Shown piece after piece: positions 100-18,279 of a stretch of DNA of 23,185 bases. The notes under the pieces were generated by a model that made no database searches, had not been told where the DNA came from, and saw nothing but the letters and a program-made list of their open reading frames with translations. Source of the DNA: a virus. Made by a program: the position numbers and the translations under genes. Every line of letters starts with the position of its first letter. Position 1 is the first letter of the stretch. Location of the stretch: positions 1-23,185 of IMG/VR virus record IMGVR_UViG_3300024262_000255. The stretch is one strand, 5' to 3'.

Positions 100-482
100 T
101 TTTGAGATTCCATGAGAAACAAGGGGGCCAAGTTTTTAAAAAATCTTGGGATCTCTTGGGAGTAAAGAGAAGGTGGATAGAGGGGGAAATTTCGGATGAA
201 GAGTTAGCGAAGGCCAGGAATGTATATTGGGTTGCAAATTGGGCTACAGATTGGGCTGCCAATGGGGCTGTATATAGGGCTGTATATTGGGCTGCCAATG
301 GGGCTGCAGATTGGGCTGCAGATTCGGCTGCATATTCGGCTGCATATTCGGCTGCATATAGGACTGCAGTACAAAAGAAGCAGTTGGAGTTACTGGGGGA
401 TATACTGGAGGATTCGGTAGGTATCCAAAGGGGGTTTGAGGGGGAAAGTTTAGAGTCTAAATTTTTAGAAGGAGGTTTATGA
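3..482 (+). CDS. Alanine-rich tetrapeptide-repeat protein (Imm5-like), 5' partial
   Basis: The frame is open to the window edge, so the gene is 5' truncated; its first codons (3-31) lie in the inverted fold-back arm and are probably not native. A TTG at 39 is the first possible internal start, but I do not think it is the real one. The protein has an amphipathic helix region (LHKFALKIAEDFL), a WIEGEISDEELAKAR segment, then eleven tetrapeptide units of the type Ala-Ala-(Asp/Tyr/Asn)-(Trp/Ser/Arg/Gly), and a closing VQKKQLELLGDIL helix. This layout resembles alanine-rich helical proteins often annotated in phages and bacteria as putative immunity (Imm5-like) proteins; I recognise this by pattern only. 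Its stop overlaps the start of its downstream paralogue (ATGA). Function unknown. Confidence 0.75.
   Translation, partial: SSAIFNANLCKALEHSGLDRELHKFALKIAEDFLRFHEKQGGQVFKKSWDLLGVKRRWIEGEISDEELAKARNVYWVANWATDWAANGAVYRAVYWAANGAADWAADSAAYSAAYSAAYRTAVQKKQLELLGDILEDSVGIQRGFEGESLESKFLEGGL
231..362 (+). repeat. 12-bp tandem repeat, 11 units, coding
   Basis: Eleven in-frame 12-bp units follow the pattern GCT-GCA-(GAT/TAT/AAT)-(TGG/TCG/AGG/GGG). Units at 327-338 and 339-350 are identical. Variation is concentrated in codons 3 and 4, with GCT nearly fixed. The array encodes the alanine-rich helical stretch of the first gene. Perfect neighbouring units suggest recent unit gain by slippage or unequal recombination. 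Confidence 0.9.
445..466. repeat. Dyad element copy 1 (GTTTAGAGTCTAAA core)
   Basis: Near-palindrome with arms TTTAGA/TCTAAA around a central G at 455, in the reverse orientation relative to copies 3-7. It lies inside the last codons of the first gene, encoding ESLESK. It is related to copy 2 by the tandem gene duplication and so is not an independent occurrence. Confidence 0.85.
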
Positions 483-1468
483 TGGTATCTAAAATAACGA
501 TTGGAGATGTTCGTGGGGTATTGATGGATTCTGACAAGCGACCAGTGCTACGTTTATTGCCTGAACTGGACGAAGTATCCCGTGGGTATGCACTGGCTCA
601 TTTGGGGGATGCCGAGGACATTGCGGATCAAGTGTGGTTATTGAATGCCACTGATTGGATTAGGGGGGGAGATTATCTAACTGGGTATTTATGTGAAGAC
701 TTGGTATTTACTGGGTTTTCTAGGGTGCTCCATGAGTTTGCATTGAAAGTCGCAGAGGATTTTTTAAAATCCCGTGAGAAGCAGGGAGGGGAGATATTAA
801 AAAAATCTTGGGATCTCTTGGGAGTAAAGAGAAGATGGCTGGAAGGGGAAATCTCCGACAGAGAATTAGAGAAGGCCAGGGATGCAGAAGGTTATACATA
901 TTGGACTGTAGGTTGGGCTGCAGATAGGGATGCAGTTTCGGCTGCAGATATGACTGCATATAGGTCTGCCGATATGACTGCAGCTGAACTTGTATCAAGG
1001 GCAGCAGTTGGGACTACATCAACGGCTACAGATTGGGCTGCATATAGGGCTGCAGTACAAAAGAAGCAGTTGGAGTTGCTGGGGGATATGCTGGATGATT
1101 CGGTGGGTATTCAAAGGGGAGTGAAGGAAGAAAGTTTAGAGTCTAAAGTAAAGAAGGGGGATTATGAAAAATCAATTGAATATGTTTATTCAAAGACTAT
1201 TAAAGAAAGGGTGAGGTATGCAATGATTTCAAATTTCGTCGACGGACAGGGTGGAGATATTATTGTATTGGAGGAAGACTCTTACCCTGTCTTGAAGTCT
1301 TCAAATTTATCGGTAGACACTGCTTTTGACTTTATCGCCAATGCAGATGGATTTAGTGCGATTGAACAGGAGTTGTCTGATTTATTCGCTCCAGGAGAAC
1401 TGTATGAGGCTTTACATTTCGCATCAAAGTTTTTCTTTCCTAAGGATCCCCCCGAGGTCAAAAGTTAA
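482..1468 (+). CDS. Alanine-rich tetrapeptide-repeat protein (Imm5-like), full-length paralogue
   Basis: About 328 aa. Adjacent ATG codons lie at 479 and 482; I prefer 482 because GGAGG at 471-475 then has a 6-nt spacer. Three parts are visible. An N-terminal segment of about 80 residues (MVSKITIGDVRG onward) has no counterpart in the truncated upstream copy. The central helical repeat domain matches the upstream gene, including the WLEGEISDRELEKAR segment, twelve degenerate tetrapeptide units and VQKKQLELLGDML. A C-terminal region of about 100 residues, starting after ESLESKVKKG, is unique to this copy. The repeats here are much more diverged than upstream. It forms an overlapping pair with its paralogue. 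The role is unknown; an immunity, superinfection or host-interaction role would fit the family resemblance but is only inference. Confidence 0.8.
   Translation: MVSKITIGDVRGVLMDSDKRPVLRLLPELDEVSRGYALAHLGDAEDIADQVWLLNATDWIRGGDYLTGYLCEDLVFTGFSRVLHEFALKVAEDFLKSREKQGGEILKKSWDLLGVKRRWLEGEISDRELEKARDAEGYTYWTVGWAADRDAVSAADMTAYRSADMTAAELVSRAAVGTTSTATDWAAYRAAVQKKQLELLGDMLDDSVGIQRGVKEESLESKVKKGDYEKSIEYVYSKTIKERVRYAMISNFVDGQGGDIIVLEEDSYPVLKSSNLSVDTAFDFIANADGFSAIEQELSDLFAPGELYEALHFASKFFFPKDPPEVKS
905..1048 (+). repeat. 12-bp tandem repeat, 12 degenerate units, coding
   Basis: Twelve in-frame 12-bp units related to those at 231-362 but more diverged (for example GCT-GCA-GAT-ATG and ACT-GCA-TAT-AGG). The reading frame and 4-residue period are kept although codons 1, 3 and 4 vary, which suggests selection on helical periodicity rather than on exact sequence. 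Confidence 0.8.
1131..1152. repeat. Dyad element copy 2
   Basis: GTTTAGAGTCTAAAG core at 1134-1148, the exact reverse complement of the CTTTAGACTCTAAAC core. It encodes ESLESK in the paralogue, so it descends from the same ancestral insertion as copy 1. About 330 bp further on, just after the stop codon, a half-copy GACTCTAAAAG occurs near 1474. Confidence 0.85.
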
Positions 1469-1545
1469 TGATTGACTCTAAAAGGATTCACCGATAGAAT
1501 CGGGACAGAGGTCATAGTCTTTTATGGGTCAAGGAATGTCATATT

Positions 1546-2073
1546 ATGTGTAATTTGGGCCAAAAAATCTACTTTTGGAAGTGCTCAAAGGCAGACTCCC
1601 TTGAAGGTTTTACTAATGGGTGGACTTGTGTCAATTTTAGTTCCGATTCCGAGGTGATGTTTTTGGTGAATTCTTGGCTACGTTCTCAGGATTTAAAGAA
1701 AAGGGCATATCTTAGTAATATTAGTTCATGGATGATACATTCCTCCTTACAGAAGCCTATGCAAGATAGGATTCAAGAGTTGGGATGGTCCTATCACGAG
1801 ATCCGTCCTCTAATCCTCAAAGAAGATCCAGTATATCGAGCAAGACATAAAAAGACTCATAACTCTAGAGTCAATTTTGCTCCATATGTGTCAAAGGGGA
1901 TCTCTGATGCGTGCAAGGTTCTTTATATCTCCCATGACGCACCTAAAGAAGTCGTGGATGCTGCATATAAGGTAATGATGTCAATGAATCATCCAGACAA
2001 GGGTGGTGATGCTGAGATGTGCGTGAAAATAAATAATGCAAAGGATTTTATTTATAAGGAGCGAGGATGGTAG
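1546..2073 (+). CDS. J-domain (DnaJ-like) protein
   Basis: 175 aa. The C-terminal 60 residues look like a J domain: helix (VLYISHDAPKEVVDAAYKV), the diagnostic HPD at residues 149-151 within HPDKGGD, then a final helix (NNAKDFI). J domains bind DnaK/Hsp70 and stimulate its ATPase through HPD. The N-terminal 110 residues are unrecognised, with a few cysteines (MCN, WKC, WTC) that do not form a clean zinc motif. ATG 1546 is the only standard start in this frame after the stop at 1495, preceded by AAGGAA. The stop overlaps the next gene by 7 nt. Its place two genes before a DnaB-type helicase suggests recruitment of host DnaK to the replication complex, as bacterial DnaJ does for lambda. That role is inferred. 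Confidence 0.75.
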   Translation: MCNLGQKIYFWKCSKADSLEGFTNGWTCVNFSSDSEVMFLVNSWLRSQDLKKRAYLSNISSWMIHSSLQKPMQDRIQELGWSYHEIRPLILKEDPVYRARHKKTHNSRVNFAPYVSKGISDACKVLYISHDAPKEVVDAAYKVMMSMNHPDKGGDAEMCVKINNAKDFIYKERGW

Positions 2074-2774
2074 AACGAAATACGATCCCAACGCCGATGG
2101 CTATTAGGGAGAGGCAAATACAGGAAAAGGAGAAGAGGGTTAGAAAGAAAGGGGGGTCTCTGTATTTTATTCAGAGGGAAAAAGAAGAATTGATACGGGC
2201 TGTTTGCTCTAACCAAGTGAAATCCAAGTCGCTGGGCAGTGCAGCAAAGGGTAAAGAGGCTGAGCAGTTTGCTGATGAATATGCCAGGATATATGCGTAT
2301 TATAAGAAAACAAGGGTATTCGATTGGCGTAAAGCATCTATCGAAGGGACCTTCTCGCTGGTTTTATGCTCGCGATCTGTGGCGCAGGCAGGTCTACTGA
2401 ATGCCACGTATGAAGACTATATAAAATCGCAGTTCTATTGGTTTAATGATTATTTTGAAAGGGCTCCGCGATTGGCAGAGATGGCCAGCGCAGGCGCGAT
2501 TATTCGCTACCAGAAGTGGAAAGAATTGAATGATAAGGGGTCTATTGTGCCTGATGTGGTGCATCCGGCCTTGGCTGGGACCAAGGTCAATACGAAGGAT
2601 ACTTCTAATCTTCACGTTCTTAAGTATGAAACAATGGTTCTTGAAAGGATGATTAAGGTCTGGGGAAGCGAAGAGGATGTGTGGGATATATGTGGGGAAC
2701 TTGGGGACGAAGAAGTTTTTTCTGATTCATTTAAAATGACTCGATACGTTTGGAAAAAAATGCAAGATCAGTAA
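2067..2774 (+). CDS. Unknown protein between J-domain protein and helicase
   Basis: 235 aa, not recognised. The first 35 residues are highly charged and basic (RERQIQEKEKRVRKKGG), which could contact nucleic acid. The rest is predicted mainly helical, with aromatic-rich segments (YIKSQFYWFNDYFERAP) and an acidic C-terminus. AAGGAG at 2056-2061 with a 5-nt spacer supports the ATG at 2067, which overlaps the J-domain gene by 7 nt; the helicase start follows 18 nt after its stop. Position and translational coupling make a helicase loader or helicase partner a reasonable guess, but no AAA+ Walker motif is present, so a DnaC-type loader is unlikely. Confidence 0.65.
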   Translation: MVERNTIPTPMAIRERQIQEKEKRVRKKGGSLYFIQREKEELIRAVCSNQVKSKSLGSAAKGKEAEQFADEYARIYAYYKKTRVFDWRKASIEGTFSLVLCSRSVAQAGLLNATYEDYIKSQFYWFNDYFERAPRLAEMASAGAIIRYQKWKELNDKGSIVPDVVHPALAGTKVNTKDTSNLHVLKYETMVLERMIKVWGSEEDVWDICGELGDEEVFSDSFKMTRYVWKKMQDQ

Positions 2775-2792
2775 TTGATCAAAGGAGCGCAC

Positions 2793-4199
2793 ATGAGCGA
2801 CAAAGATGAGTACAACTTTGACATTGAAGTACAAGAAGATATTTTAAGATTAATGGCTCAGGATAATGATTTTATATCAGCGGCATCGCATTGGGTTAAA
2901 CCGGAGTATTTCACTGATGACACCTTGAGGAAAACAGCTTCCTTTCTTCTTAGTTTTCATGAGAAGTATCAGATGGCTCCCACGCTTGGGCAATCTAAGA
3001 CTGAACTAATGAGACAATCCGAACTTGCTAATTCAAACTGGGATGAATTTAGAAAGAGACTTGACTCATTTTATAAGGGGATTTCTCAGAACAGAGACTA
3101 CACCATTGACGTTGTTTCCCATTTTGCCCAGGCTCAGGCATGGAAAGCAGCAACGCTTGAGGCGCTGCCATTCATAAAGAAGGGGGATTTTGACAAGGTG
3201 AATGAGTTGTGGGCGAAGGCGTCAGGCGTTGGCGGGGTGATGGATGCAGGCGGATATTGGTTTTTCGAGACCGTTGATGAGCGTATCCGAAGAAGGGGGG
3301 ACGCAGAGGATGTGGAATCTGATGTTATCCCGACGGGTATCTTAGAATTGGATGATTGCTTTCGTCTTAAAGGAATTGGACGAGGGGAGATTGGATTGGT
3401 ATTGGCACCCACCAACGGTGGAAAATCGATTGCCTTAGGGCAATTCGGGCGTCGAGCCATTTGGGAAGGGTACAACGTAGCATTGCTGTCGTTTGAAATG
3501 TCAGAGCATAAAATGGCAGATCGGATGGATGCTGGATTTACTTTCACGAAGATGAAGGATTTGGTAAATAATCAGGAGGCACTATTAAAGAGTTTGAAAA
3601 AAATGGCGATTCGGTTCAAAGAGAAACTATGGATAAATAGATATCCGACGAAAGGGGCTAGCCTTTCGGATATTAAAAGGAACTTAGAAGGACTGAGAAA
3701 GAGAAAGGGATGGATCCCTGATTTGATTATCCTGGATTATGCTGCTATTGTGAAGCCAAATAGACCTCGAGAGAAAAAGCATCTCGAACTCCAAGAGATC
3801 TTGGAGGATTTTCGTGGGCTCTGCGTAGAGACAAATGCTGGTGGATGGACAGCGGCGCAGGCCAACAGGGAAGGAGCTGAAGCAGCAATTGTGCGTGGTA
3901 CACACGTAGCGGGTTCGTGGGACTCTCTTGGCATCTGTGACTATATTCTGACTGTGAATGCAACGGAAGAGCAGATGAAGAATAATGTCATTCGATTATT
4001 TTTGGAAAAGAACCGAGATGGGATTGCGAAGGTGGACATTTTTCCTTTGCGTTCTGACTTTGAAAGAATGGTAATTGTAAGGCACAAAGATGCCCCTGGA
4101 TCCACAGCATACAATATTGGGATTGGTAGTGTGGGGGAGAATAAGGTGGACAGTTTGAGTGCTTCGATGGGCCTTAAAAGTTACACTTTAAAAAAATAA
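2793..4199 (+). CDS. Replicative DNA helicase, DnaB/gp41-like
   Basis: 468 aa from the ATG at 2793, which has AAGGAG at 2782-2787; an upstream TTG at 2775 lacks this support. The N-terminal helical domain (about residues 1-130) precedes a RecA-type ATPase domain. Walker A is APTNGGKS at about residues 203-210, Walker B is LIILDYA at about 311-317. A motif-4-like segment AAQANREG and the terminal arginine segment EKNRDG are where DnaB has SQLNR and KNRNG. The length matches the family. Such hexamers translocate 5'-3' on the lagging strand ahead of the fork. No primase zinc finger or TOPRIM motif is fused, and no primase gene is visible in the window, so primase must come from elsewhere in the genome or from the host. 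Confidence 0.9.
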   Translation: MSDKDEYNFDIEVQEDILRLMAQDNDFISAASHWVKPEYFTDDTLRKTASFLLSFHEKYQMAPTLGQSKTELMRQSELANSNWDEFRKRLDSFYKGISQNRDYTIDVVSHFAQAQAWKAATLEALPFIKKGDFDKVNELWAKASGVGGVMDAGGYWFFETVDERIRRRGDAEDVESDVIPTGILELDDCFRLKGIGRGEIGLVLAPTNGGKSIALGQFGRRAIWEGYNVALLSFEMSEHKMADRMDAGFTFTKMKDLVNNQEALLKSLKKMAIRFKEKLWINRYPTKGASLSDIKRNLEGLRKRKGWIPDLIILDYAAIVKPNRPREKKHLELQEILEDFRGLCVETNAGGWTAAQANREGAEAAIVRGTHVAGSWDSLGICDYILTVNATEEQMKNNVIRLFLEKNRDGIAKVDIFPLRSDFERMVIVRHKDAPGSTAYNIGIGSVGENKVDSLSASMGLKSYTLKK

Positions 4200-4211
4200 A
4201 GGACTCTGTTG

Positions 4212-5417
4212 ATGAAGTTTATCGTATTCTCTGACTTGCATGCTCATTCATTTGATAAGTATTCAAAAAAGACAAAAGATGGCAGGAATACTCGACTGGA
4301 TGTCATCCTTCAATGCCTTAAGAATATTCGAGATCTCTCGATCGAAACGGGAATCAGGGATATCTTGTTTGCCGGGGACTTATTTGACGCAAAGAATAGG
4401 GTTCCAATGATTGTGCTTAATGAAGTATATCGAGAGTTCTCTGAGTGGGAAAAACTAGGGTTAAATGTTTTAATGATTCCTGGAAATCATGATTTTGCTA
4501 TCAGGACAGGCGAAGAACATGGTTTAACAGTGTTGAGCCAGTTGAATCGATTTATGATTGTGGATAAAGTATCTAAGTTCAGGTGGACGTTGGATACTGG
4601 GGAATCTGTCAGAGTCATCGCGATCCCGTATAGGGAACGAATCGATGCGGATTGGTTTGTTTTCGACGAGGAACCCGAAGTCCCGACAATCTTACTGGGT
4701 CATGGATTAGTAGAAGGTGCTTGCTATATTCCTTCAGGTATGGCATTGGGTCAGAGTGAGCCTGTGATTGATCACGAAGGTATTTCGACTCGTGACTTAA
4801 TTATGCTTGATTGGCTAAACAAGGTAGACATTGCTGTGATTGGACATATCCATTACCCACAAAAATTGGGTTTAAATAAACATGTGTTAATCCCAGGGAT
4901 GCCATGGATTCAGTATCCTCATGAGAGAAATCAGAAAAGAGGAATTTGGATCGCTCAATTAGACAAGAGAAAAGGTGTTAGTTTTGAGCAGCATTGTTAT
5001 GGGAATATTCCGAGTTTTATTAAGGTGCAGTTAAAAGAAGACGGTGGATTCTCTATGATTGAATCCCCTGTGAATGAATTAGATTTATTAAGTGGACAGA
5101 TGGTATTGCTGCAGCCTGAGAGCATTGATGTGAACCCGCAGCGAATCATCGATGCTTCAAATTATCTTTATAATGATTGTGGGGTCGTGTTTGTCGATGT
5201 CGTAAAGTGTGAACAGGCGTCTTCATTATTGAATGCTCCACGAATTGATGTGTCTTCTATGCAGGACTCGAAAAAGGTATTGGAAAAAGTTTTAAAATCT
5301 GGTTTATTAGAGACTGGATCGGAAGACATTGATGAATTGATTAAACTTGGTTCTTCAATTTTAAATGAGGTTATTGAGAATAAGAATATGGGAAATAAAA
5401 ATGTATTAAGAGAGTGA
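4212..5417 (+). CDS. SbcD/gp47-like recombination endonuclease subunit
   Basis: 401 aa from ATG 4212 (a TTG at 4209 is less likely). It is a calcineurin-type metallophosphoesterase with the ligand motifs in order: DLHAH (Asp8, His10), GDLFD (55-59), GNHD (91-94), LLGHG and GHIHYPQ. All expected metal ligands appear present. This fold plus the C-terminal extension matches SbcD/Mre11 and T4 gp47, which with an SbcC/gp46 ATPase resect DNA ends and cut hairpins during recombination-dependent replication. Its ATPase partner is encoded at 7083, three genes downstream rather than next to it. The C-terminal 140 residues are probably the ATPase-binding and capping region. It follows the helicase by 12 nt, in the same transcription unit. 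Confidence 0.9.
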   Translation: MKFIVFSDLHAHSFDKYSKKTKDGRNTRLDVILQCLKNIRDLSIETGIRDILFAGDLFDAKNRVPMIVLNEVYREFSEWEKLGLNVLMIPGNHDFAIRTGEEHGLTVLSQLNRFMIVDKVSKFRWTLDTGESVRVIAIPYRERIDADWFVFDEEPEVPTILLGHGLVEGACYIPSGMALGQSEPVIDHEGISTRDLIMLDWLNKVDIAVIGHIHYPQKLGLNKHVLIPGMPWIQYPHERNQKRGIWIAQLDKRKGVSFEQHCYGNIPSFIKVQLKEDGGFSMIESPVNELDLLSGQMVLLQPESIDVNPQRIIDASNYLYNDCGVVFVDVVKCEQASSLLNAPRIDVSSMQDSKKVLEKVLKSGLLETGSEDIDELIKLGSSILNEVIENKNMGNKNVLRE

Positions 5418-5423
5418 ATATTT

Positions 5424-5774: not shown

Positions 5775-5793
5775 TGCTTTAAGGAGTTTTGTG

Positions 5794-6396: not shown

Positions 6397-6418
6397 AAAC
6401 TTTAGACTCTAAACTTTT
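6395..6418. repeat. Dyad element copy 3
   Basis: Core CTTTAGACTCTAAAC at 6400-6414, flanked by A5 and T4. It begins within the stop codon of the dCTP deaminase gene and fills the whole 24-nt gap to the next ATG at 6421. The flanking C/C pair is mismatched. It could act as a weak terminator-like hairpin (A-run, dyad, T-run) or as a protein-binding site. Confidence 0.9.
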
Positions 6419-6420
6419 CA

Positions 6421-9014: not shown

Positions 9015-9022
9015 GGTTTGTT

Positions 9023-9646: not shown

Positions 9647-10192
9647 GTGATAAAATTCAGAACATATATTCATCCTCAGCCCAAAGGACGTCCTCGTTTC
9701 AATTCGACGACAAGGAGGACTTTTACCCCGGCCTCGACATCTAAGTTTCAAAAGGCGTTTCAATTTTCTGTGTTAAATTTATTAGATGTAGAGAAAGTGG
9801 CGCTGCCTATTTTTGGCGAGGGAGTTCCCTTGATTCTCTCTGTGGATTTTGTTTTTTCTAGGCCCAAGCGATTAATGAGAAAGAAGGACCCTGATGGGTT
9901 TTTATGGAGACCGAACTCTGAGGATTTAGACAATCTTGAAAAATCGGTAATGGACTCTCTTAATGGTATTCTTTGGCTTGACGATCGACAGATATGTAAA
10001 ATTAATTCTAGAAAGTTGTACGGCCCCAAGGGATCGGAGTCTTTTATCAGTGTGTGCGTGAGGCGATTAGGTGAACCGCCAGTTTTTTTATGTGATAGCC
10101 GGAATAATGCTTTATTTATAAAAGAAAATGAATTAGACTCTCAGGAAGAGGACCTGGAAAAAACTTTAGATTCTAAAGTTTTCAATAAATAG
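9647..10192 (+). CDS. rusA: RusA-type Holliday junction resolvase
   Basis: 181 aa from GTG 9647, placed directly after the previous TAA, with a GGGGGCGAG site upstream. RusA signatures are PKGRPRF at residues 12-18 and the catalytic block SEDLDNLEKSVMDSLNG with Asp93, Asp95 and Lys99, followed by LWLDDRQI, which supplies the further acidic residue. RusA dimers cut four-way junctions symmetrically, here probably to debranch replicating DNA before packaging. It is longer than E. coli RusA (about 120 aa): an extra C-terminal 40 residues follow the VRRLG strand and end with the peptide encoded by dyad copy 4, consistent with a 3' extension gained with that element. Confidence 0.92.
   Translation: MIKFRTYIHPQPKGRPRFNSTTRRTFTPASTSKFQKAFQFSVLNLLDVEKVALPIFGEGVPLILSVDFVFSRPKRLMRKKDPDGFLWRPNSEDLDNLEKSVMDSLNGILWLDDRQICKINSRKLYGPKGSESFISVCVRRLGEPPVFLCDSRNNALFIKENELDSQEEDLEKTLDSKVFNK
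10160..10182. repeat. Dyad element copy 4 (perfect, C:G version)
   Basis: Perfect palindrome with 11-bp arms AAAACTTTAGA (10160-10170) and TCTAAAGTTTT (10172-10182) around a single T. It differs from most copies by having C paired with G at the position flanking TTTAGA. It lies in the last codons of the resolvase gene (KTLDSKVF), 8 nt before its stop codon. Confidence 0.9.
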
Positions 10193-10204
10193 AAGGGAAA
10201 TGTT

Positions 10205-10333: not shown

Positions 10334-10336
10334 AAA

Positions 10337-10813: not shown

Positions 10814-10818
10814 TTTAT

Positions 10819-12534
10819 ATGTCTGAGTTGAATGGGCTGAGTTTGCCTCCAGGGGTAACCCCGCAAGTCTTAAAAAAATTAATGGAAAGAAGGCTTACCC
10901 TTTGGTCCCAATACAGCGGGGTCCAAGTTGACAAGCATGCTTTCTCATTTGGGCATCATAATTATCTATATCCCATCTATGACTGCAAGAGCGAGAACAT
11001 GGTGATTATGAAGGCTGCACAGATGGGCCTCACGATCTATATGCTTCTCAAAGCCTTTCACATGTCCTTATTCCCAAAATCATGGGGGTTCAGCAGCCCT
11101 ATTAAAATCGGGTTCTACTTTCCAGAGGCTAAGGGTATCGGGCGAATTGTAAAAGACCGCGTCACTCCTTTAATGATGTCCTCGCCCGATTTGATGCCTT
11201 ACTCCAGAGAAGTTCGTCAGGACTTGAAGCCCATAGGCGAGTCTTCTGTATACTTTTTGTATATGGGAGGAACCTCTACTAAGGACTCCGTGCCCCTGAA
11301 TGCATTGTTTTTTGATGAGGTCCGCCTTGTCGACTTGAACGACATTGAGCAAGCATATCACCGGGTTCTCCACTCCACTCCCTTTAAATATAAGACACAT
11401 ATCTCGACAGCTGGATTGCCAAATGGGGACATCCATCGGCTCTTTATGGAATCAGATCAACGTTGGTTCCATACCGTATGCCAGGGGTGCAAGCATGAAC
11501 AGATATTGGCATTGGATTTCCCCGACTGTATTGCGATACACCCAGAGCACAGCCCCAGAGCAGGTCAGAGTTATTATCGCTGCAAAAAGTGTAAAGGAGA
11601 GATTAGATATTCCAATCTAGGATACTACATTGCTGAGAATCCAAAGTCGGATTCTGCGGGATTCCAAATCAGCCAATTGATTAGCCAGCAAAACACCCCT
11701 AAGGACATCCTCACCAGTTTTGACCGAACCACCAATAAGAGTGAATTTTGGAACTCTGTACTTGGACTTCCTTATGTAGACAAGCAGAATAAACCTGTAT
11801 CAGAAGAAGAACTGGACTCCAATGTCAGCCCCATGCTTGAATGGGGAGAGTCCATTGGCGACAACTACATGGGCGTCGATCAGATGATGGGGCTTAATTA
11901 TGTCTTTATCATTAATAAGAATGGTAAAGAAAAGAGAGTCGTATGGTTTGAAATCATAGAAGATGAAGATCCATGGAGAAGAACTGGACAGTTGTTTGAA
12001 GAATATAATGTTAAATGTGCTGTCGTCGATGCATTACCGAACGCCAACGAAGCTATGAGGTTTGCCAATTACTACGGAAAAAGAGTTTTCCTTGCATATT
12101 ATGGCGCATATAAAGATCAAGTGCGATGGGAAGATGATCATCAAGTAAAGAAGACTTTGAAAAGGGCGACAAAAGAGACGTATCATAAGTATAAGGTGTT
12201 TCTCGATACATACAGAAGCATTGAATATACATTGGATTGCGTCGTCGAGAAAATCTTCCGATGGCCAGATCCGGAACAACATCTTGTCAGGTGTCGTCCC
12301 TATAATGGTGGTATCCTTGCTGCTTATCCTATAATGAGGACGCATGCCTACCCGATGCTTGCGTGCCCTATTCGAGAGCATACAGAGTCTGAGGGAAAGG
12401 GAATGAACGCAGGGCTAAAGAAGCCAAAAACGCGCTGGAGATTCGTGGGAGTTGACCCGCATGCACTGGATGCTTTGAATTACGCCAACTTTGCCTCAGA
12501 GCGAGTTGAAAAAGGCTTCACTTTTTCATTCTAA
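10819..12534 (+). CDS. terL: Terminase large subunit, GpA family
   Basis: 571 aa from ATG 10819, with AGGGGT seven nt upstream; an in-frame GTG at 10792 lies inside the previous gene. It has the lambda gpA-like plan. The deviant Walker A is KAAQMGLT (65-72), with lysine at the front rather than in GKT, as in lambda gpA. Walker B is FFDEV (164-168). A zinc finger has cysteines at 221, 224, 255 and 258. A nuclease domain begins at about residue 350 (GVDQMMG) and continues through CAVVDALPN, and the C-terminal PHALDALNYANFA is typical of terminases. It packages and cuts concatemeric DNA. No small subunit or portal gene is recognisable nearby. Dyad copy 5 follows the stop codon. Confidence 0.9.
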   Translation: MSELNGLSLPPGVTPQVLKKLMERRLTLWSQYSGVQVDKHAFSFGHHNYLYPIYDCKSENMVIMKAAQMGLTIYMLLKAFHMSLFPKSWGFSSPIKIGFYFPEAKGIGRIVKDRVTPLMMSSPDLMPYSREVRQDLKPIGESSVYFLYMGGTSTKDSVPLNALFFDEVRLVDLNDIEQAYHRVLHSTPFKYKTHISTAGLPNGDIHRLFMESDQRWFHTVCQGCKHEQILALDFPDCIAIHPEHSPRAGQSYYRCKKCKGEIRYSNLGYYIAENPKSDSAGFQISQLISQQNTPKDILTSFDRTTNKSEFWNSVLGLPYVDKQNKPVSEEELDSNVSPMLEWGESIGDNYMGVDQMMGLNYVFIINKNGKEKRVVWFEIIEDEDPWRRTGQLFEEYNVKCAVVDALPNANEAMRFANYYGKRVFLAYYGAYKDQVRWEDDHQVKKTLKRATKETYHKYKVFLDTYRSIEYTLDCVVEKIFRWPDPEQHLVRCRPYNGGILAAYPIMRTHAYPMLACPIREHTESEGKGMNAGLKKPKTRWRFVGVDPHALDALNYANFASERVEKGFTFSF

Positions 12535-12557
12535 AAACTTTAGACTCTAAACTTTTT
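12533..12557. repeat. Dyad element copy 5
   Basis: Core CTTTAGACTCTAAAC at 12538-12552 with A5 before and T5 after. It overlaps the terminase stop codon (12532-12534). The arrangement of A-run, dyad and T-run is the most terminator-like of the family, although the stem is AT-rich. It opens a 100-nt non-coding stretch before the next ATG in which I see no convincing promoter. Confidence 0.9.
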
Positions 12558-12635
12558 CAAAAAAATATGTCAGTTTTGAATTTTGGTACTCATCATTATC
12601 CATGAGCAGATGTTGTTGAATTGGAGGAGTTTTTG

Positions 12636-12899: not shown

Positions 12900-12900
12900 A

Positions 12901-13167
12901 GTGCCAGTGTATGAAAAGAGTCCATATGGAACGGAGTATAATTCTTTTGCCGAAGACGGTGAACCTATCGTAAAAGTATTGGCTCCAGATGATCTATTGG
13001 AGCAGATGGCGAAAGGAATGACTCCTGAGGAGTTGTCTGCTCATTTTAATGCTCCCATTCCGGCGATTGAAGATGCTATCATGTCTATTCCCTTAATGAT
13101 GTCTTGGAGACGAACTCAAATGACCTCGTCGAGTTTGCAAAAACTTCCGGAAGTTCCCATTCTTTAA
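12901..13167 (+). CDS. Small protein with helix-turn-helix-like segment
   Basis: 88 aa from GTG 12901, with AAGGAG about 9 nt upstream. Residues around MTPEELSAHFNAPIPAIEDAI read like a compact helix-turn-helix of the kind that binds DNA. The tail (RRTQMTSSSLQKLPEVPIL) is not informative. HTH proteins near a terminase are often small terminase subunits, but those usually lie upstream and are longer, so I leave the function open. Confidence 0.55.
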   Translation: MPVYEKSPYGTEYNSFAEDGEPIVKVLAPDDLLEQMAKGMTPEELSAHFNAPIPAIEDAIMSIPLMMSWRRTQMTSSSLQKLPEVPIL

Positions 13168-13180
13168 AAAGAGGTGAGTT

Positions 13181-13687
13181 GTGAAAATTGCGTTATTGGG
13201 ACAGTCTGTAATTAACCCAAACTGGAAATCACTTATCAGCGAGTCCTTTAAGACTTCGCTACTAAACTCGATCCGGGATGAAGAATGGAGAAATTCTCTT
13301 GAAGTCTTCTCCACTCGAGTTGAGATGGCTTGCTCCAAATATAAAATCAACTACCCGGAGTTCTTGGAATCAAAGTATCCAATGGATCCATTGTATTTTT
13401 CATTAGATCGGAGTATCCAAGAGTCCACTTATGAATCCCACATGTTGCTGACAGCCGCTCAATCAGACATTATTGTTTTCTATGACGATGAGTCCTTAAG
13501 TTCTACTAAAGAATCTCTCCTAGATAAGTTAAATGATGCGTCAACAGTCTTTGTCGTATGGCTCCCAGCAGATGAAAACCTGAGAAACGAAGACATTGAA
13601 GAACCAGGGATGATTCTGATTAATGGGAACCATGAGAGTTTAATTAGTGTTCTATTGCACTTGTGTGTCAAGTCGGAGATGGAGTAA
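13181..13687 (+). CDS. Unknown Rossmann-like protein
   Basis: 168 aa from GTG 13181, with GAGGTGAG just upstream. It starts with a strand and glycine turn (MKIALLGQS), has a second strand AAQSDIIVFYDDESLSS followed by a helix (TKESLLDKL), and a third strand STVFVVWLP, suggesting an alpha/beta Rossmann-like or nucleoside deoxyribosyltransferase-like fold. No catalytic residues can be assigned with confidence. The stop overlaps the next start (TAATG). Its place just before thymidylate synthase fits a nucleotide-related role, but this is a guess. Confidence 0.6.
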   Translation: MKIALLGQSVINPNWKSLISESFKTSLLNSIRDEEWRNSLEVFSTRVEMACSKYKINYPEFLESKYPMDPLYFSLDRSIQESTYESHMLLTAAQSDIIVFYDDESLSSTKESLLDKLNDASTVFVVWLPADENLRNEDIEEPGMILINGNHESLISVLLHLCVKSEME

Positions 13688-14121
13688 TGGATTCTCAATT
13701 TAATGTATTGCATCTAGGTAGGTTTTTTAATTTAAATAAATCTACATATTTGGATGCTCGATCTAGTATTTTTCGACTAGGTGATGAAGATATTTTCATC
13801 GATTTGCAATCTCGCGTGAATTATGATGTCGTCTTTATAGAAGTGGATTATTTTAATCCACTTCTTGATCATTTTTCGAAAAATCCGAAAGATCTTCTCA
13901 GGCATCGTCTTTATTGTCTTTATAGTTTTAATGATCCAGAGAATGAACGCATTGCATTAAGGCGAATGAATCCTGATAATCACGGGCTATTATTGAAGAA
14001 TGAAAAAAACAAGTTTTTAGATGTTATGGGGTTTAATGATCCGCTGTTTTTTCTTTCTCGCTCAAGTATCTCCTCGGCTCTTAAAATTATAAAGGAATTT
14101 GGAGAATGCAAGTTTATTTAA
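13687..14121 (+). CDS. Unknown alpha/beta protein upstream of thyA
   Basis: 144 aa from ATG 13687 in a TAATG overlap with the preceding stop; GGAG lies at about 13677. A central strand YDVVFIEVDYF and a final helix after LFFLSRSSISSAL resemble the ordering in the preceding protein, so the two may be diverged relatives, though sequence identity is low by eye. No motif identifies an activity. The end overlaps thyA by 16 nt, so the three genes are probably translated together. Confidence 0.55.
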   Translation: MDSQFNVLHLGRFFNLNKSTYLDARSSIFRLGDEDIFIDLQSRVNYDVVFIEVDYFNPLLDHFSKNPKDLLRHRLYCLYSFNDPENERIALRRMNPDNHGLLLKNEKNKFLDVMGFNDPLFFLSRSSISSALKIIKEFGECKFI

Positions 14122-14909
14122 ATCTTCTCCAGGAAGTGATGGCAGATGGTACAGACCGCCCAGATCGAACAGGGACAGGCCGCAGGAGTATCTTTGGCCC
14201 CCAGGTGAAGTACGACCTCCGCAAAGGGTTCCCTGTCCTCACAACGAAGAAGGTGTTCTTTAAAGGGGTGGTCGTGGAACTCCTTTGGTTTCTTCGAGGC
14301 GACACCAATGTGAAGTATCTCAACCAAAATGGTGTTAGCATCTGGGATGAGTGGGCAGATGACAATGATAACCTGGGGAAGGTGTATGGACACCAGTGGA
14401 GATCATTTGGCGAAAACTTGGAGCGCGGGGAGCCCGGGGTTGACCAAATTGAAAGAGCAGTGCGATTAATTAAGAATTTTCCGGATAGCCGTAGAATAGT
14501 AGTGACGGCATGGAACCCTGCCGAACTTGAGGAGATGGCGCTTCCCGCTTGTCATTGCTTTTTTCAGTTTTATCCAGATGGCGAATATTTGGACCTGAAG
14601 TTATACCAGCGTTCTTGCGATGCATTTCTTGGAATGCCCTTTAATATAGTCTCTTATGCGTTGCTGCTCTCGATGGTTGCGCAAGTTACAGATTTAAAAC
14701 CGCGTTATTTTATACATTCTTTCGGAGATCTTCATATATACCATAACCACTTCGAACAGGTGGAGGAGATTCTAACCAGGGAGCCCTTGAGCCTGCCTAA
14801 TTTGTATTTGAATAAAGGGAATAGAACGCTTGACAATTGGTCTCTAGATGATATTAAATTGATTGGCTATGTCTCCCATCGTGGGATTCGAGCCCCAATC
14901 GCTATTTAG
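14106..14909 (+). CDS. thyA: Thymidylate synthase (ThyA type)
   Basis: 267 aa, the usual ThyA length. Catalytic Cys149 is in ALPACHCFFQFY. Phosphate-binding arginines are in the SRR segment at 128-130 and in QRSCD (Arg169), which leads into LGMPFN with Asn180. The C-terminus GIRAPIAI matches the family ending. It methylates dUMP to dTMP with methylene-tetrahydrofolate, producing dihydrofolate that the DHFR encoded at 17656 would recycle. ATG 14106 is preceded by AAGGA at 14092-14096 and lies inside the previous gene. The middle of the gene looks somewhat richer in GC than its neighbours, which may reflect separate acquisition. Confidence 0.96.
   Translation: MQVYLNLLQEVMADGTDRPDRTGTGRRSIFGPQVKYDLRKGFPVLTTKKVFFKGVVVELLWFLRGDTNVKYLNQNGVSIWDEWADDNDNLGKVYGHQWRSFGENLERGEPGVDQIERAVRLIKNFPDSRRIVVTAWNPAELEEMALPACHCFFQFYPDGEYLDLKLYQRSCDAFLGMPFNIVSYALLLSMVAQVTDLKPRYFIHSFGDLHIYHNHFEQVEEILTREPLSLPNLYLNKGNRTLDNWSLDDIKLIGYVSHRGIRAPIAI
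14830..14857 (+). promoter_or_regulatory. Possible internal sigma70-like promoter
   Basis: TTGACA at 14830-14835 and TATTAA at 14852-14857 with a 16-bp spacer, inside the 3' end of thyA. The -35 box is perfect but the -10 box is a partial match. It would start transcripts about 50 nt before the membrane-protein gene at 14923. Chance occurrence in AT-rich DNA is quite possible. Confidence 0.3.
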
Positions 14910-14922
14910 GAGAGTTGTTGAT

Positions 14923-16557
14923 ATGAATGAAGTTGCAAGTTTCTTGACATCAGACGTCGCAATGAAAATCGGGATTGTATTTATTGGACTTTGGGCTTCC
15001 TGGGCTCTCTTTCGATTTTTTATAGCAATGAAGGAGTTCTCTTTTCGGATTTCGAAGGAATTTGAGTTCACTAAAAAGCCAAAAGATCCTCAGATGGAAA
15101 TATTTACTGAAGCATTGAAAGAATTTAAAGATGATTGTTCCGAAGATGGGGAGTATGATGACGAGTATGAGGACGATGATGAAGAAGTATTCGTAGTTCA
15201 GTCATACATGGAACATTACGTAAAGGCAAAGGCGATTAGCGTATTTGATCAGATTTCACCATCTATTGATAATATTAATATTAAAATAGATGAGTTGGCT
15301 GAGTTAATTGCACGCACTCATGAACACGCATGTGCAGTTGGTTCAAATGTGCATGCAGCGATGGCTTCGACTGCGGACGCTATCGAATATGTAGATGAAG
15401 TTGATAGAAAAGTGGACTCTCTTTCAGCGTGTATTAATAAAAGGCAAATTTCAACTCCTGTAAATTATGATTTATGGGAGCATATTATTGAATTGGGTCT
15501 TTTATCTGCTCTTGAAAAACTAAAAACACCATCAGAGCATGATAACGTGACGGATAAGAGTTCTAGCGCGATGAAGGAATTGGATACTCTTGCTTTCACT
15601 CTTGCGAAAAGCATTGAGAGGAGTCAGAAGAGAAATGGCGATGCCTTTTCTTCTGTTCCTTTTGATAAATTGAACGAGAAAGAAAACCGAAACAACTTTG
15701 GGATGATTCAGGAAGAACCTCAGGTTGAATCCGAGAACAAGGTGGATACTAAAGTTCCAGTCACTCCTGAGGCTACCTCTCCCAAGGATGAAAAGATTGG
15801 CGTGGTTAGTCCTCAATCAGGCATTATGTTTGATTTCTCCCACTTGGATAAGCGTGTGAGAGAGAATGTCCCTTCATTTCGTGCGTATGCTGACGATCTG
15901 GATACCCCGGAGAAAGTTAATCGATATTTGGCTACTTTGAATGAGCAGGAAAGTCTTAAGCAGTATATTTCTGTGGAGAGAGAATTCTCTGATGTTCAAT
16001 GGCAAAAAATAACGAAAGAAGGATATCGGCCTGATCTCGACAGGGGGCAAAAGGCGAAGGCAATGGTTGACGCTGAAAATAAAATTAACGAAAAAGAATT
16101 CAAAAAGGGGTTCTGGCTTGAGCCTCTGAGAATGAAAAAGGTTTATCAGAATAATTCAGACTCTCCAATGAATGATTCATTGTATTTCTGTAACAAGGAG
16201 GGTCGCATTATTAGCGCTGGTGTGTCAAGAGGTGAGGGGGTTATTCCAGTAGACGCGACCCATGTATTAATCATCACCAAAGAACGTTTGTCGATCAATG
16301 GTTCTGATAAATTCAATGTAAAGATTCAATGGGAAACTCTTGCTCAGGGGGATTCTCTTCCTTCTAAGAAATTTCTATGCTCACTGTCTTACCCTGTTGC
16401 TAATATTTCATTTGGAATTCACCATCTTATGCACACAGTAAAGACAAAGATTCAGAATAAAAACGACATGGAATTCATTCTCTTGCGCGAATTTATCGAC
16501 AATGACACTAGACCCGCTGTGGGATCGTTCTTCGATGTGAATACTGACAAGAAATAG
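14923..16557 (+). CDS. Membrane-anchored protein with acidic and coiled-coil regions
   Basis: 544 aa from ATG 14923, with GGAGAG (14909-14914) 8 nt upstream. There is one predicted membrane helix at about residues 12-34 (IGIVFIGLWASWALFRFF), without a cleavable signal. A very acidic run follows (EDGEYDDEYEDDDEE, about 75-92), then a helical region (NINIKIDELAELIARTHEH) likely to form a coiled coil, a charged low-complexity linker (about 230-310) and a C-terminal domain of about 230 residues containing SGIMFDFSHLDKRV and strand-rich segments. It is not recognised. An inner-membrane anchor for phage replication or lysis control, or a virion protein, are both possible. It is the last gene before a strong terminator. 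Confidence 0.65.
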   Translation: MNEVASFLTSDVAMKIGIVFIGLWASWALFRFFIAMKEFSFRISKEFEFTKKPKDPQMEIFTEALKEFKDDCSEDGEYDDEYEDDDEEVFVVQSYMEHYVKAKAISVFDQISPSIDNINIKIDELAELIARTHEHACAVGSNVHAAMASTADAIEYVDEVDRKVDSLSACINKRQISTPVNYDLWEHIIELGLLSALEKLKTPSEHDNVTDKSSSAMKELDTLAFTLAKSIERSQKRNGDAFSSVPFDKLNEKENRNNFGMIQEEPQVESENKVDTKVPVTPEATSPKDEKIGVVSPQSGIMFDFSHLDKRVRENVPSFRAYADDLDTPEKVNRYLATLNEQESLKQYISVEREFSDVQWQKITKEGYRPDLDRGQKAKAMVDAENKINEKEFKKGFWLEPLRMKKVYQNNSDSPMNDSLYFCNKEGRIISAGVSRGEGVIPVDATHVLIITKERLSINGSDKFNVKIQWETLAQGDSLPSKKFLCSLSYPVANISFGIHHLMHTVKTKIQNKNDMEFILLREFIDNDTRPAVGSFFDVNTDKK

Positions 16558-16602
16558 GTTCAGAACAGACACTCCCTTCATTTCACTTGAAAAGATTTAT
16601 AT

Positions 16603-16669
16603 AAAAACACAATGACCCATTCAAATTAATACGGTTATCGAATGGGTCATTGTGTTTTTTTTTATCCAA
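16603..16669. terminator. Strong rho-independent terminator, probably bidirectional
   Basis: Perfect 20-bp inverted repeat: arms 16603-16622 and 16640-16659 around a 17-nt loop, followed by a T-run (total about nine T from 16655 to 16663) on the + strand. The other strand also has A-rich flanks giving a T-run, so it could work in both directions. It closes the transcription unit ending with the membrane-protein gene, 45 nt after its stop. Confidence 0.92.
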
Positions 16670-16690
16670 CGAGCAGAAGCAGGATAATCG

Positions 16691-16939
16691 ATGATAGATT
16701 TCGAAGATGGCTCAAGGTGTATGATCTGTTGCGGTGGTTTGCTTAGAAAAACCACTGTTGATGAAGTTATTCGATACAAAGGACAATCAAAAGAATTAAA
16801 TAATTTAACAGCATATCTTTGCATTGAATGTGGTGATGGATTTTTCGACAAAGATTCTGAAGAGTATATGAGTGAGCAGTTTGAATCTCTTAAAAGAAAA
16901 GTAGACAACTCTGAGACATGTTTATCCCCAAAAGTTTAG
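16691..16939 (+). CDS. Orphan MqsA/YgiT-like zinc-domain protein
   Basis: 82 aa. Cysteines at 10, 13, 44 and 47 form CxxC-x30-CxxC, the same spacing as the zinc ligands in the N-terminal domain of the MqsA (YgiT) antitoxin, and neighbouring features agree (VIRYKGQSKELNNLTAYLCIECGDGFF). MqsA has a C-terminal helix-turn-helix that binds its own promoter; this protein stops after the zinc domain, and no MqsR-like toxin is next to it. In MqsA the zinc domain neutralises the toxin, so a stand-alone version could act as an anti-toxin against a host toxin. That is inference. The ribosome site is weak. The stop codon (16937-16939) is supplied by dyad copy 6. Confidence 0.7.
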   Translation: MIDFEDGSRCMICCGGLLRKTTVDEVIRYKGQSKELNNLTAYLCIECGDGFFDKDSEEYMSEQFESLKRKVDNSETCLSPKV

Positions 16940-16952
16940 ACTCTAAACTTTT
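16930..16952. repeat. Dyad element copy 6 (perfect, G:C version)
   Basis: Perfect palindrome with 11-bp arms AAAAGTTTAGA (16930-16940) and TCTAAACTTTT (16942-16952) around a single C. It keeps symmetry with G:C at the position where copy 4 has C:G. Its TAG is the stop codon of the preceding small gene. Confidence 0.9.
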
Positions 16953-16982
16953 TTCACCCTCTAAACTCAACAGGATTAAATC

Positions 16983-17696
16983 ATGGATAATTATTACTCA
17001 TTGTATCAGGGAGATGCAGTAGGATTCATGAAGTCATTGGATGACGATACTGCGGACTTAATTATTACGGACATTCCCTATGAGTCAATGGAAAAACATC
17101 GAAAAATAGGAACAACCACAAGACTAAAAAAAAGCAAATCATCCAGCAATGAATGGTTTGAAGTTTTTCCAAATAGTAGATTTAAAGAATTTACAGATGA
17201 ATGCTATAGGGTTCTTAAGAAGAATCGCCATTGTTATCTTTTCAGTGATTCTGAGACTATGTTTGTTTTAAAGCCCCAGGGCGAGGAATCTGGTTTTAAA
17301 TTTTGGAAACCAATTGTATGGGACAAGATGGCCATCGGAACTGGTTATCATTATAGGGCGAAGTATGAATTTATACTTTTCTTTGAGAAAGGGAAGTTGA
17401 ATTTAAACAGCAAGTCCATTCCGGATATCTTAAGTGTGAAGAGGGTATGGAGAGGGTATCCGACGGAGAAACCTGTTGACTTGATGAAAATATTGATTGA
17501 GCAGAGCACGACGCCTGGAGCGCTTGTAGTGGATCCATTCATGGGTTCAGGGGCAACAGGCGTTGCTGCATTGGAGTGTGGCCGTTCTTTCTTGGGAAAC
17601 GACATAAGCACCAACGCTACGGATGTTGCTGCAAAGAGAATGGAGCAGTTAGTTAATGAAAGAATTGAGATTAATCGTTGCGATGACAAAGAATAG
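16983..17696 (+). CDS. DNA methyltransferase, beta class (N6-adenine or N4-cytosine)
   Basis: 237 aa. The catalytic motif IV DIPY (residues 30-33) comes before the AdoMet-binding motif I DPFMGSG (184-190), the order of beta-class amino-methyltransferases. The following FLGNDI matches motif II/III features. The region between holds the target-recognition part, so specificity cannot be read. DIPY is a variant of the usual DPPY or SPPY. No restriction endonuclease is next to it, so it is a solitary enzyme, which phages commonly use to protect their DNA or to regulate genes. ATG 16983 starts 30 nt after dyad copy 6. Its 3' end overlaps the DHFR gene by 41 nt. Confidence 0.88.
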   Translation: MDNYYSLYQGDAVGFMKSLDDDTADLIITDIPYESMEKHRKIGTTTRLKKSKSSSNEWFEVFPNSRFKEFTDECYRVLKKNRHCYLFSDSETMFVLKPQGEESGFKFWKPIVWDKMAIGTGYHYRAKYEFILFFEKGKLNLNSKSIPDILSVKRVWRGYPTEKPVDLMKILIEQSTTPGALVVDPFMGSGATGVAALECGRSFLGNDISTNATDVAAKRMEQLVNERIEINRCDDKE

Positions 17697-18165
17697 AGTG
17701 ATTGGCAAGGGCAATAAGATCCCATGGAGTTTTCCAGAGGATCTTGCAAGATTCAAAAATCTAACGATGGGGCATCCAGTGATTATGGGTAGGCTTACGT
17801 ATGAATCGATTGGGCACCCATTAAAGAATAGGATGAATATCATTGTATCTAAAAGTGATGATTTTAGTCCTGAAAATTGTATTGTGTGTCCTAATTTCAA
17901 AGCAGCATTAAATGTTTCATATTTATTCTGCAAAAATGAGCATGAGGTCCCTTATGTGATTGGTGGATCTCGTTTATATAAAGAGGCATTGCCATATGCG
18001 ACAGAGTTATACATCACTCATATTAAGGGTGATTACGATGGAGATGTCTTTTTCCCTGAGTATGATGAAGATGAATGGGCACCCATGATGCGTTATGAAC
18101 ATCTCTTAAATATTGATAATGATAATCTGCGGACTCAGACATACGCTCGAGTTGTAAAACTTTAG
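17656..18165 (+). CDS. folA: Dihydrofolate reductase
   Basis: 169 aa, close to typical bacterial length. Motifs are NRVIGKGNKIPW near the N-terminus, active-site Asp29 in PEDLARFK, PVIMGRLTYESIG for NADPH and folate contacts, NIIVSKS, and the glycine-rich VIGGSRLYKEALP with ELYITHIKGDYDGD toward the C-terminus. It regenerates tetrahydrofolate from the dihydrofolate made by thymidylate synthase. The start at 17656 inside the methyltransferase gene is needed because the later ATG at 17686 would remove the first beta strand (LRLIVAM). The stop TAG (18163-18165) lies within dyad copy 7. Confidence 0.95.
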   Translation: MKELRLIVAMTKNRVIGKGNKIPWSFPEDLARFKNLTMGHPVIMGRLTYESIGHPLKNRMNIIVSKSDDFSPENCIVCPNFKAALNVSYLFCKNEHEVPYVIGGSRLYKEALPYATELYITHIKGDYDGDVFFPEYDEDEWAPMMRYEHLLNIDNDNLRTQTYARVVKL

Positions 18166-18177
18166 ACTCTAAACTTT
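18156..18177. repeat. Dyad element copy 7
   Basis: Core CTTTAGACTCTAAAC at 18160-18174. Its TAG is the stop codon of the DHFR gene. It marks the left edge of the 229-bp non-coding region before the tail-fibre operon and could help end upstream transcription. Confidence 0.9.
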
Positions 18178-18227: not shown

Positions 18228-18279
18228 TTGATGTCCTGTATTTCTATTTTAAAACCAGACAAATAAACCAAGAAAAGCA

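Follow-up and report, generated by a model that had tools for sequence, protein, structure and literature searches.

The palindromic repeat and its gene context

The DNA analysed here, referred to as the window (W), is a 23-kb IMG/VR fragment of 23,185 nucleotides, in which seven copies of a short palindrome are dispersed among genes for a terminase large subunit (terL) and several other proteins. All copies share an identical 13-bp odd-centred core, TTTAGA-N-TCTAAA, and the exact core TTTAGANTCTAAA starts at the first coordinate of each site listed below. Being palindromes, the sites carry no strand.

449..461, no strand, site 1, GTTTAGAGTCTAAAT: exact core some 13 nt short of the stop codon of ORF 3-482
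1135..1147, no strand, site 2, GTTTAGAGTCTAAAG: exact core in ORF 479-1468, at a place homologous to site 1
6401..6413, no strand, site 3, CTTTAGACTCTAAAC: A-tract beside the core overlaps the TAA of a dCTP deaminase-like gene
10165..10177, no strand, site 4, CTTTAGATTCTAAAG: last codons of a RusA-like gene
10819..12534, plus strand, terminase large subunit (GpA family)
12539..12551, no strand, site 5, CTTTAGACTCTAAAC: directly past the terL stop
12901..13167, plus strand, small HTH-like protein with conserved counterparts in G004, G005 and G006
16935..16947, no strand, site 6, GTTTAGACTCTAAAC: provides the TAG stop codon of ORF 16691-16939
18161..18173, no strand, site 7, CTTTAGACTCTAAAC: provides the TAG stop codon of the DHFR gene

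The number of exact cores expected in the window is 0.004 (observed: 7), and a reversed control pattern had no match there. With three mismatches allowed, 15 matches were observed, compared with at most 3 in dinucleotide shuffles. The initial annotation had described seven near-identical copies of a 22-25 bp dyad at these places; the exact core is present in 7/7. The length of the dyad is only partly borne out, because the flanking bases at +/-7 form no Watson-Crick pair in most copies, so that the perfect dyad found throughout is the 13-bp core. An A-tract precedes this core and a T-tract comes after it.

The reported relation to stop codons is accurate. Copies 3, 5, 6 and 7 overlap a stop (the TAG within TTTAGA in 6 and 7, a TAA in 3 and 5), copy 4 ends 8 nt before its TAG, and copies 1 and 2 lie in a C-terminal coding region, the first near the stop of its ORF and the second at the homologous place. 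The flanks of these two sites are duplicated (D1/D2), in agreement with the proposed origin by gene duplication. Site 2 is followed by an RBS-like sequence and an ATG just downstream, inside the longer ORF, and site 6 is located upstream of the DNA methyltransferase gene.

Distribution and spacing in related phages

The word of the window is present in 52 copies in a 161-kb phage, where CTTTAGANTCTAAAG is exact in 52/52, and in 16, 8, 4 and 4 copies in four further contigs; a lack of further copies in relatives, which the initial annotation had named as grounds for refutation, is thus not what is seen. In several large soil and sediment phages the near-identical palindromes number in the dozens and are distributed almost evenly. 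In a pattern scan of about 85,000 bacterial and archaeal genomes the flanked word never occurred several times per stretch, which identifies it as a phage feature. A host repeat was also considered and rejected: the scan gave 26 stretches that carry one site each, a result consistent with chance in AT-rich genomes.

Two relatives that were found through the terminase large subunit of the window, G005 (58%) and G006 (50%), lack its word and carry sister words instead. G005 has 28 copies of GTTAGG-W-CCTAAC, and G006 has 32 copies of GTTYAGT-S-ACTRAAC when up to 2 mismatches are allowed, against 0-2 in a mono-shuffled control. The three word groups have the odd-centred architecture in common, and each phage group has its own spelling. 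The half-site core is constant, reading TTAG at positions -5 to -2 in the window group and G005 and TYAG in G006, and the switch between words affects the innermost base (-1), which is A in the window group, G in G005 and T in G006. None of these words was found in phage SPbeta. The G005 and G006 words also lack GANTC, and a GANTC methylation switch was rejected.

The larger contigs G004 to G007 contain one site per 3-5 kb. Their spacing is more regular than random in G004, G005, G007 and the relaxed set of G006 (CV 0.44-0.52 versus 0.91-0.97 for uniform placement; p<=0.001), and 98% of the G004 genome is located within 3 kb of a site. Across the relatives the sites are intergenic and enriched at 3' ends, as the initial annotation had noted for the window, but they occupy tandem, convergent and divergent junctions and occasionally lie inside genes. 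Even spacing and intergenic location are stronger regularities than 3'-end placement. Comparison of distant relatives showed junction occupancy to be conserved no more than expected by chance. The exception follows terL, where site 5 marks the one 3'-end junction that is occupied in W, G004, G005 and G006. Gene-specific regulation was rejected on the same grounds, as site-gene associations showed no conservation above chance between distant relatives in a test whose power is low because only 10-31 orthologue pairs were available per comparison.

Candidate ParB-family proteins

Among the three large terminase relatives, two have a gene for an orphan protein of the ParB/KorB/Noc family, namely, G004 gene 96 and G006 gene 47. 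Sequence matches of both proteins are to ParB/Spo0J/Noc/KorB (Noc 6e-8). Their TIGR00180 matches have E-values of 1e-12 and 1.7e-10, the former scoring below the curated cut-off (48.1 versus 58.45 bits). G006 gene 47 has a Pfam KorB match of 0.0044, and KorB itself is matched only weakly at best (E 0.025). For the G006 protein the predicted structure is of low confidence (mean pLDDT 51.5), and the top fold matches of this model are all ParB, Noc or KorB. The candidate protein displays a ParB N-terminal fold, nucleotide-binding boxes and a central HTH; the motifs are ISGFxR and, in the G004 protein, ENLQRKDLSP, with the HTH VGKSEAWVS. The G004 gene has a site about 219 nt upstream, and the G006 gene a diverged site, ATTTAGTCACTAAAC, about 110 nt upstream.

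No ParB gene was found in the incomplete contigs W, G001, G002, G003, G005 and G007, including the 143.9 kb of G005, which is open at both ends and in which none was detected despite its 28 sites. A search of IMG/VR for further relatives of the protein returned no contig besides the two already known. Phages commonly encode orphan ParB-like proteins, whose roles are largely open according to a 2025 survey (PMC12704722), and two co-occurrences of protein and sites are therefore modest evidence.

The operator OB of KorB from plasmid RK2, TTTAGC(C/G)GCTAAA (PMC2680271), has the same architecture as the phage words. The predicted target of the G004 gene 96 protein is CTTTAGASTCTAAAG. The half-sites of TTTAGASTCTAAA and of OB TTTAGCSGCTAAA match except for the innermost base, in line with a KorB-like consensus. 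Both systems have a 13-bp odd-centred palindrome with a TTTAG half-site and a G/C centre, and KorB is a ParB-type protein that has several operators on one plasmid and acts at long range as a sliding clamp (PMC2680271, PMC11790492). Unlike OB, whose innermost base is C, the phage words have A, G or T; the sites lie in phage genomes at one per 3-5 kb, whereas the OB sites of RK2 are upstream of promoters, and no KorA partner was identified for the phage proteins. Residue 173 varies along with base -1 in G004, G006 and KorB, being E (GKSE), K (GRSK) and P (GKSP), respectively. In ParB/Noc, residue 173 reads position 1, where one of the two base differences between parS and NBS lies (PMC7383237). 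This covariation is the basis of a proposed one-base/one-residue specificity switch between word and protein.

A proposed clamp-loading model

We consider it probable that a ParB/KorB-type clamp encoded by the phage is loaded onto DNA at the palindromes and serves to coat, silence or organise the genome. Each palindrome would be bound by a dimeric phage-encoded ParB/KorB-family protein, which by analogy with KorB and ParB may read the site with its helix-turn-helix, bind CTP, close as a clamp and slide onto the adjoining DNA. With a spacing of about 3-5 kb and a location mostly between genes, the sites would bring a clamp within range of most of the genome. A genome-wide role, rather than gene-by-gene regulation or partition, is suggested by the even spacing, and the likely purpose would be genome-wide silencing or organisation of phage DNA, neither control of particular genes nor ParA-driven partition. 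Of the four options in the initial annotation (terminator-like hairpin, regulator binding site, RNA-processing site and mobile miniature element), the "regulator binding site" is supported in a broad sense, as the sequence-specific site of a predicted dimeric DNA-binding protein.

NBS, the sites of Noc, differ from the phage sites in being even-centred, chromosomal and engaged in division control, and the phage case shows no sign of membrane binding. The common ground is a ParB paralogue without its own ParA and many genome-scattered sites, in Bacillus subtilis, with a specificity that shifts with few residues and two bases (PMC7383237). The SPBRE/MrpR system of SPbeta, a 134-kb phage, likewise relies on a conserved 15-bp phage-wide motif to which one master regulator binds (PMC10516654), but SPBRE has another sequence and is spread unevenly over the promoter regions of about ten genes, and its protein is tyrosine-recombinase-like. 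The 13-bp matS target of MatP, with 23 repeats, organises an 800-kb DNA domain in E. coli (PMC3330122); it differs in its unrelated protein family and a spacing of about 35 kb. We found no published report of a genome-wide use of the KorB/ParB family in phages. Among recorded phages with ParB-like genes, VarioGold has 3 sites, Agrobacterium phage 7-7-1 has 5 promoter-linked sites and Gordonia BBQValindra has no clear sites.

A more specific version, which we put forward tentatively, is that a group of large, possibly virulent phages uses an orphan ParB-type sliding clamp, loaded from evenly spaced sites, to coat the entire genome, with word/protein pairs switching at one base. If true, such a coat would amount to a phage chromatin by which the phage DNA in the cell is insulated, silenced or protected, and the one-base switch would prevent cross-loading between co-infecting phages. 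The DNA targets of phage ParB proteins can now be predicted, as a definable word per phage group with copies mapped along the genome, and these targets make phage ParB function directly testable.

Alternative explanations

A stoperator-like immunity system is unlikely. A phage repressor, not necessarily ParB-like, would then block transcription elongation in lysogens from dispersed sites as in cluster A mycobacteriophages, whose 20-30 stoperators have group-specific consensus sequences and a phage-encoded repressor (PMC6550527). The 20-50 dispersed intergenic sites near gene ends, with their group-specific words, fit this scenario, with which a KorB-type silencer would overlap. However, stoperators reside in genomes of about 50 kb and follow the direction of transcription, and their known repressor is unrelated and binds its asymmetric site as a monomer (PMC9283540). 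An asymmetric, one-orientation site was not observed here: the core is a perfect palindrome, and it occurs at genes of either orientation as well as in divergent junctions. Moreover, a motif scan of G004-G006 revealed no integrase-like motif, and the scanned G004 and G006 proteins include no integrase or phage repressor family.

Two further proteins or systems are each very unlikely. The first is the small HTH-like protein whose gene (12901-13167) closely follows terL, and for which the palindromes might be sites of packaging or late regulation. Its gene lies close to the one conserved site in W, G004, G005 and G006, and the model of the protein has a tri-helical HTH-like fold, albeit with no significant fold match. 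Its third-helix segment is nearly identical across phages with three different words, and the protein thus fails to track word specificity. The second is a set of parS centromeres of a ParABS plasmid-prophage, which would account for the ParB-family protein and recalls the record Yong-DA, where ParA/ParB accompany five dispersed GTTCAGACRTCTGAAC sites. Against it, no contig contains an ORF with a deviant Walker A motif (KGGxGK[ST]-type), the ParA-binding motif (pattern from PMC12704722) was not seen in the G004 and G006 proteins, and 52 evenly spread sites far exceed the need of a centromere.

The least credible explanation is an intrinsic terminator acting in both directions, or an RNA hairpin, at the 3' ends of genes, despite the A- and T-tracts, the 3'-end enrichment and an arm complementarity in G004 of 4.63-4.71 versus 3.55 in shuffled arms, since the window copies fold no better than random window sequence (mean -4.8 versus -5.6 kcal/mol; 0/7 below -8), the stem is AT-rich, where an intrinsic terminator would have a stable GC-rich hairpin ahead of a U-tract, the loop has just a few nucleotides with mostly no pair at +/-7, arm covariation is absent in W, G001, G005 and G006 and complementary-arm excess in the G005 and G006 words, divergent junctions are occupied, and an ordinary strong terminator-like hairpin of other sequence is located at 16598-16664 of the window. 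The mobile miniature element, also suggested initially, is dismissed by a logo that is flat outside about +/-12. The small arm-complementarity excess at the G004 sites is superfluous to the clamp model.

The palindromic word in the window and in other phages

The exact core TTTAGANTCTAAA occurs at positions 449, 1135, 6401, 10165, 12539, 16935 and 18161 of the window, so that the seven copies of the initial annotation were all recovered (0.004 expected). A reversed control pattern had no match in the window, and shuffled window sequence gave at most three, even with three mismatches tolerated. The pair at +/-7 is less constant than the core (C:C, G:G or G:T in most window copies). The relation to stop codons described for individual copies was confirmed: the TAG of the stop lies within the word in copies 6 and 7, a TAA is overlapped by copies 3 and 5, and copy 4 ends 8 nt 5' of a stop codon. 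Copies 1 and 2 are related by gene duplication, as had been proposed, and occupy equivalent places in the duplicated gene. The two tandem duplicates (220-1050) contain a repetitive segment in which GCTGCA-type units are abundant (Ala/Trp/Tyr-rich short repeats).

Further copies in other phages, which the initial annotation had suggested searching for, were found by a pattern scan of IMG/VR for the word of the window group, TTTAGA-N-TCTAAA, with multiple copies confined to few contigs:

G004, 161 kb: 52 copies
G007, 65.9 kb: 16 copies
G001, 40.8 kb: 8 copies
G008, 25.4 kb: 7 copies; near its sites almost identical to part of G007
G002 and G003, 17.4 and 21.5 kb: 4 copies each; GC 60%; shared proteins nearly all 100% identical

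The 15-mer CTTTAGANTCTAAAG is exact in all 52 copies of G004, two of which (10042 and 66827; stretches L014 and L017) lengthen into perfect 41-bp palindromes. A host repeat was rejected, because the flanked word is present in 26 stretches from ~85,000 bacterial and archaeal genomes with a single site in each.

Sister words in contigs linked by the terminase

The large relatives G005 (143.9 kb) and G006 (104.7 kb), whose terminases are 58% and 50% identical to that of the window, harbor no words of the window group. An unbiased scan for over-represented palindromes documented words of the same design, namely GTTAGG-W-CCTAAC in G005 (28 copies) and GTTCAGT-S-ACTGAAC in G006; with up to two mismatches, GTTYAGT-S-ACTRAAC is found 32 times in G006 compared with 0-2 times in shuffled sequence. 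At its centre the G005 word has solely A or T (16 A, 12 T; L087-L094), unlike the TTTAGA and G006 words, in which this base is mostly C or G. Directly 3' of the stop of terL, the gene of the terminase large subunit, the respective word is present in the window, G004 and G006, and G005 has its own ~56 nt farther beyond this stop. The presence of an individual word of the same design in each relative, including the terL position, thus indicates that the recognition specificity was switched and the system retained. When the words are aligned at the centre, positions -5 to -2 of the half-site are TTAG in the window group and G005 and TYAG in G006; at position -1 the window group has A, G005 has G and G006 has T.

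Placement and spacing of the sites

According to approximate gene calls from our own simple caller, 45 of 52 sites in G004 and 26 of 28 in G005 are intergenic (9 and 4 expected). The placement at gene 3' ends emphasized in the initial annotation holds as an enrichment that persists once the intergenic location is taken into account (just 3' of genes: 21 vs 10.5 expected in G004, 16 vs 7.8 in G005, 8/8 in G001), but it is not exclusive, with G004 sites located in divergent as well as convergent junctions. This preference for gene gaps and nearby 3' ends may be a simple avoidance of coding constraint.

Sites are spaced much more evenly than at random in G004, G005, G007 and the relaxed set of G006 (CV 0.52, 0.45, 0.44 and 0.44), compared with a CV of 0.91-0.97 for uniform and higher values for random intergenic placement (p <=0.001); on their own, the window and G001 are too short for a good spacing test. 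In G004, 98% of the sequence is no more than 3 kb away from a site. Site positions at orthologous genes of distant relatives are shared at chance level with the exception of terL, at low power, and the closer pair G001/G007 has more positions in common (p ~0.02-0.03). Between relatives the spacing is conserved and the positions mostly are not.

A candidate ParB-type protein

A protein scan of subsets of the G004 and G006 proteins retrieved one ParB-type gene:

G006 gene 47, L097:726-1808: Pfam KorB E 0.0044, weak ParB_N
G004 gene 96, L018:12532-13884: orthologue of G006 gene 47

The G004 protein matches Noc (6e-8) as well as Spo0J and ParB chains, and the G006 protein matches Spo0J (0.0018) and KorB (0.025). 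The NCBIfam ParB model TIGR00180 scores 1e-12 and 1.7e-10, respectively, both below the curated cut-off. AlphaFold modelled the G006 protein with low confidence (mean pLDDT 51.5), and the top Foldseek matches of this model are all ParB, Spo0J, KorB or Noc. A site is located ~219 nt upstream of G004 gene 96, and a diverged one, ATTTAGTCACTAAAC, ~110 nt upstream of G006 gene 47. Both proteins look like orphan ParBs, because a ParA-like deviant Walker A motif was found in none of the contigs. The window, an IMG/VR record of 23,185 bp, contains no ParB gene, and none was detectable in the incomplete contig G005 despite its sites. Elsewhere in G006, L096:851-1612 shows a weak match to sigma-70 region 2 (E 0.0016) and possibly encodes a phage sigma-like factor.

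Comparison with KorB and proposed role

The KorB operator of plasmid RK2, TTTAGC(C/G)GCTAAA (PMC2680271), resembles the window word in its 13-bp length and its odd G/C centre and differs at the innermost base alone. Including KorB, the four systems exhibit all four bases at -1 next to a constant TTAG/TYAG core. The ParB and Noc sites, parS and NBS, are told apart by their bases at two positions, 1 and 6, and HTH residue 173 reads position 1 (PMC7383237). The segment around the equivalent residue is GKSE in G004, GRSK in G006 and GKSP in KorB, and this correlation with base -1 across three protein sequences is suggestive of a link between word and protein, not proof of it.

Both KorB and ParB form clamps that depend on CTP, load at their own site and slide; promoters as far as 1.5 kb away are within the reach of KorB (PMC11790492). 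Clamps of this type would load at the phage sites and slide along the DNA; with one site per 3-5 kb they could reach most of the phage genome and may serve its silencing, insulation, organisation or protection. We infer that such a genome-wide role fits better than the control of particular genes or partition, because of the even spacing, the turnover of positions and the lack of ParA. No report of genome-wide ParB/KorB use by phages was found in the open-licence literature.

Stoperators are comparable in number and word divergence, but they are oriented and asymmetric, unlike these palindromes. SPBRE/MrpR of SPbeta represents a similar idea and differs by its promoter sites and another protein fold (PMC10516654). 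RNA hairpins or terminators are disfavored, the folding energy of the window copies being at background level; an excess of arm complementarity beyond the core relative to shuffled arms is seen in G004 alone among the phages and is not called for by the clamp reading. A small HTH-like protein encoded near terL is disfavored as the cognate factor, its recognition segment being kept while the words change.

ParB genes with dispersed palindromes also occur elsewhere at lower density, as shown by the records of Aphanizomenon phage Yong-DA (ParAB and five dispersed GTTCAGACRTCTGAAC) and VarioGold (three GTGCAGANNTCTGCAC, one within parB). Yong-DA (L108) may be a plasmid, since its record lacks capsid, tail and terminase annotations and contains polysaccharide genes, ParA/ParB, a replication protein and dispersed parS-like sites.

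Other features of the window

At megablast sensitivity, the recorded-phage collection contains no relative of the window. Its genes are tailed-phage replication and terminase genes:

DnaB-like helicase
SbcCD-like proteins
dCTP deaminase
RusA
GpA-type terminase
ThyA
DNA methyltransferase
DHFR

At 16598-16674, 3' of the ORF 14863-16557, a strong hairpin (arms of 25 nt, 92% complementary) is followed by a T-run; in contrast to the palindromes, it resembles an ordinary intrinsic terminator. The perfect 31-nt inverted repeat at the extreme contig start (1-31 and 69-99) is possibly an assembly artefact of the contig end. Three direct copies of CTTATCCCCC at 18198-18232, in the long intergenic region 3' of site 7 and adjoining an AT-rich stretch, could represent an origin or iteron-like region. 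Finally, a 56-nt repeat occurs three times in neighbouring putative tail-fibre genes (18476-19566) and encodes DHG-x-LxGLxDDDHTQY-like segments.
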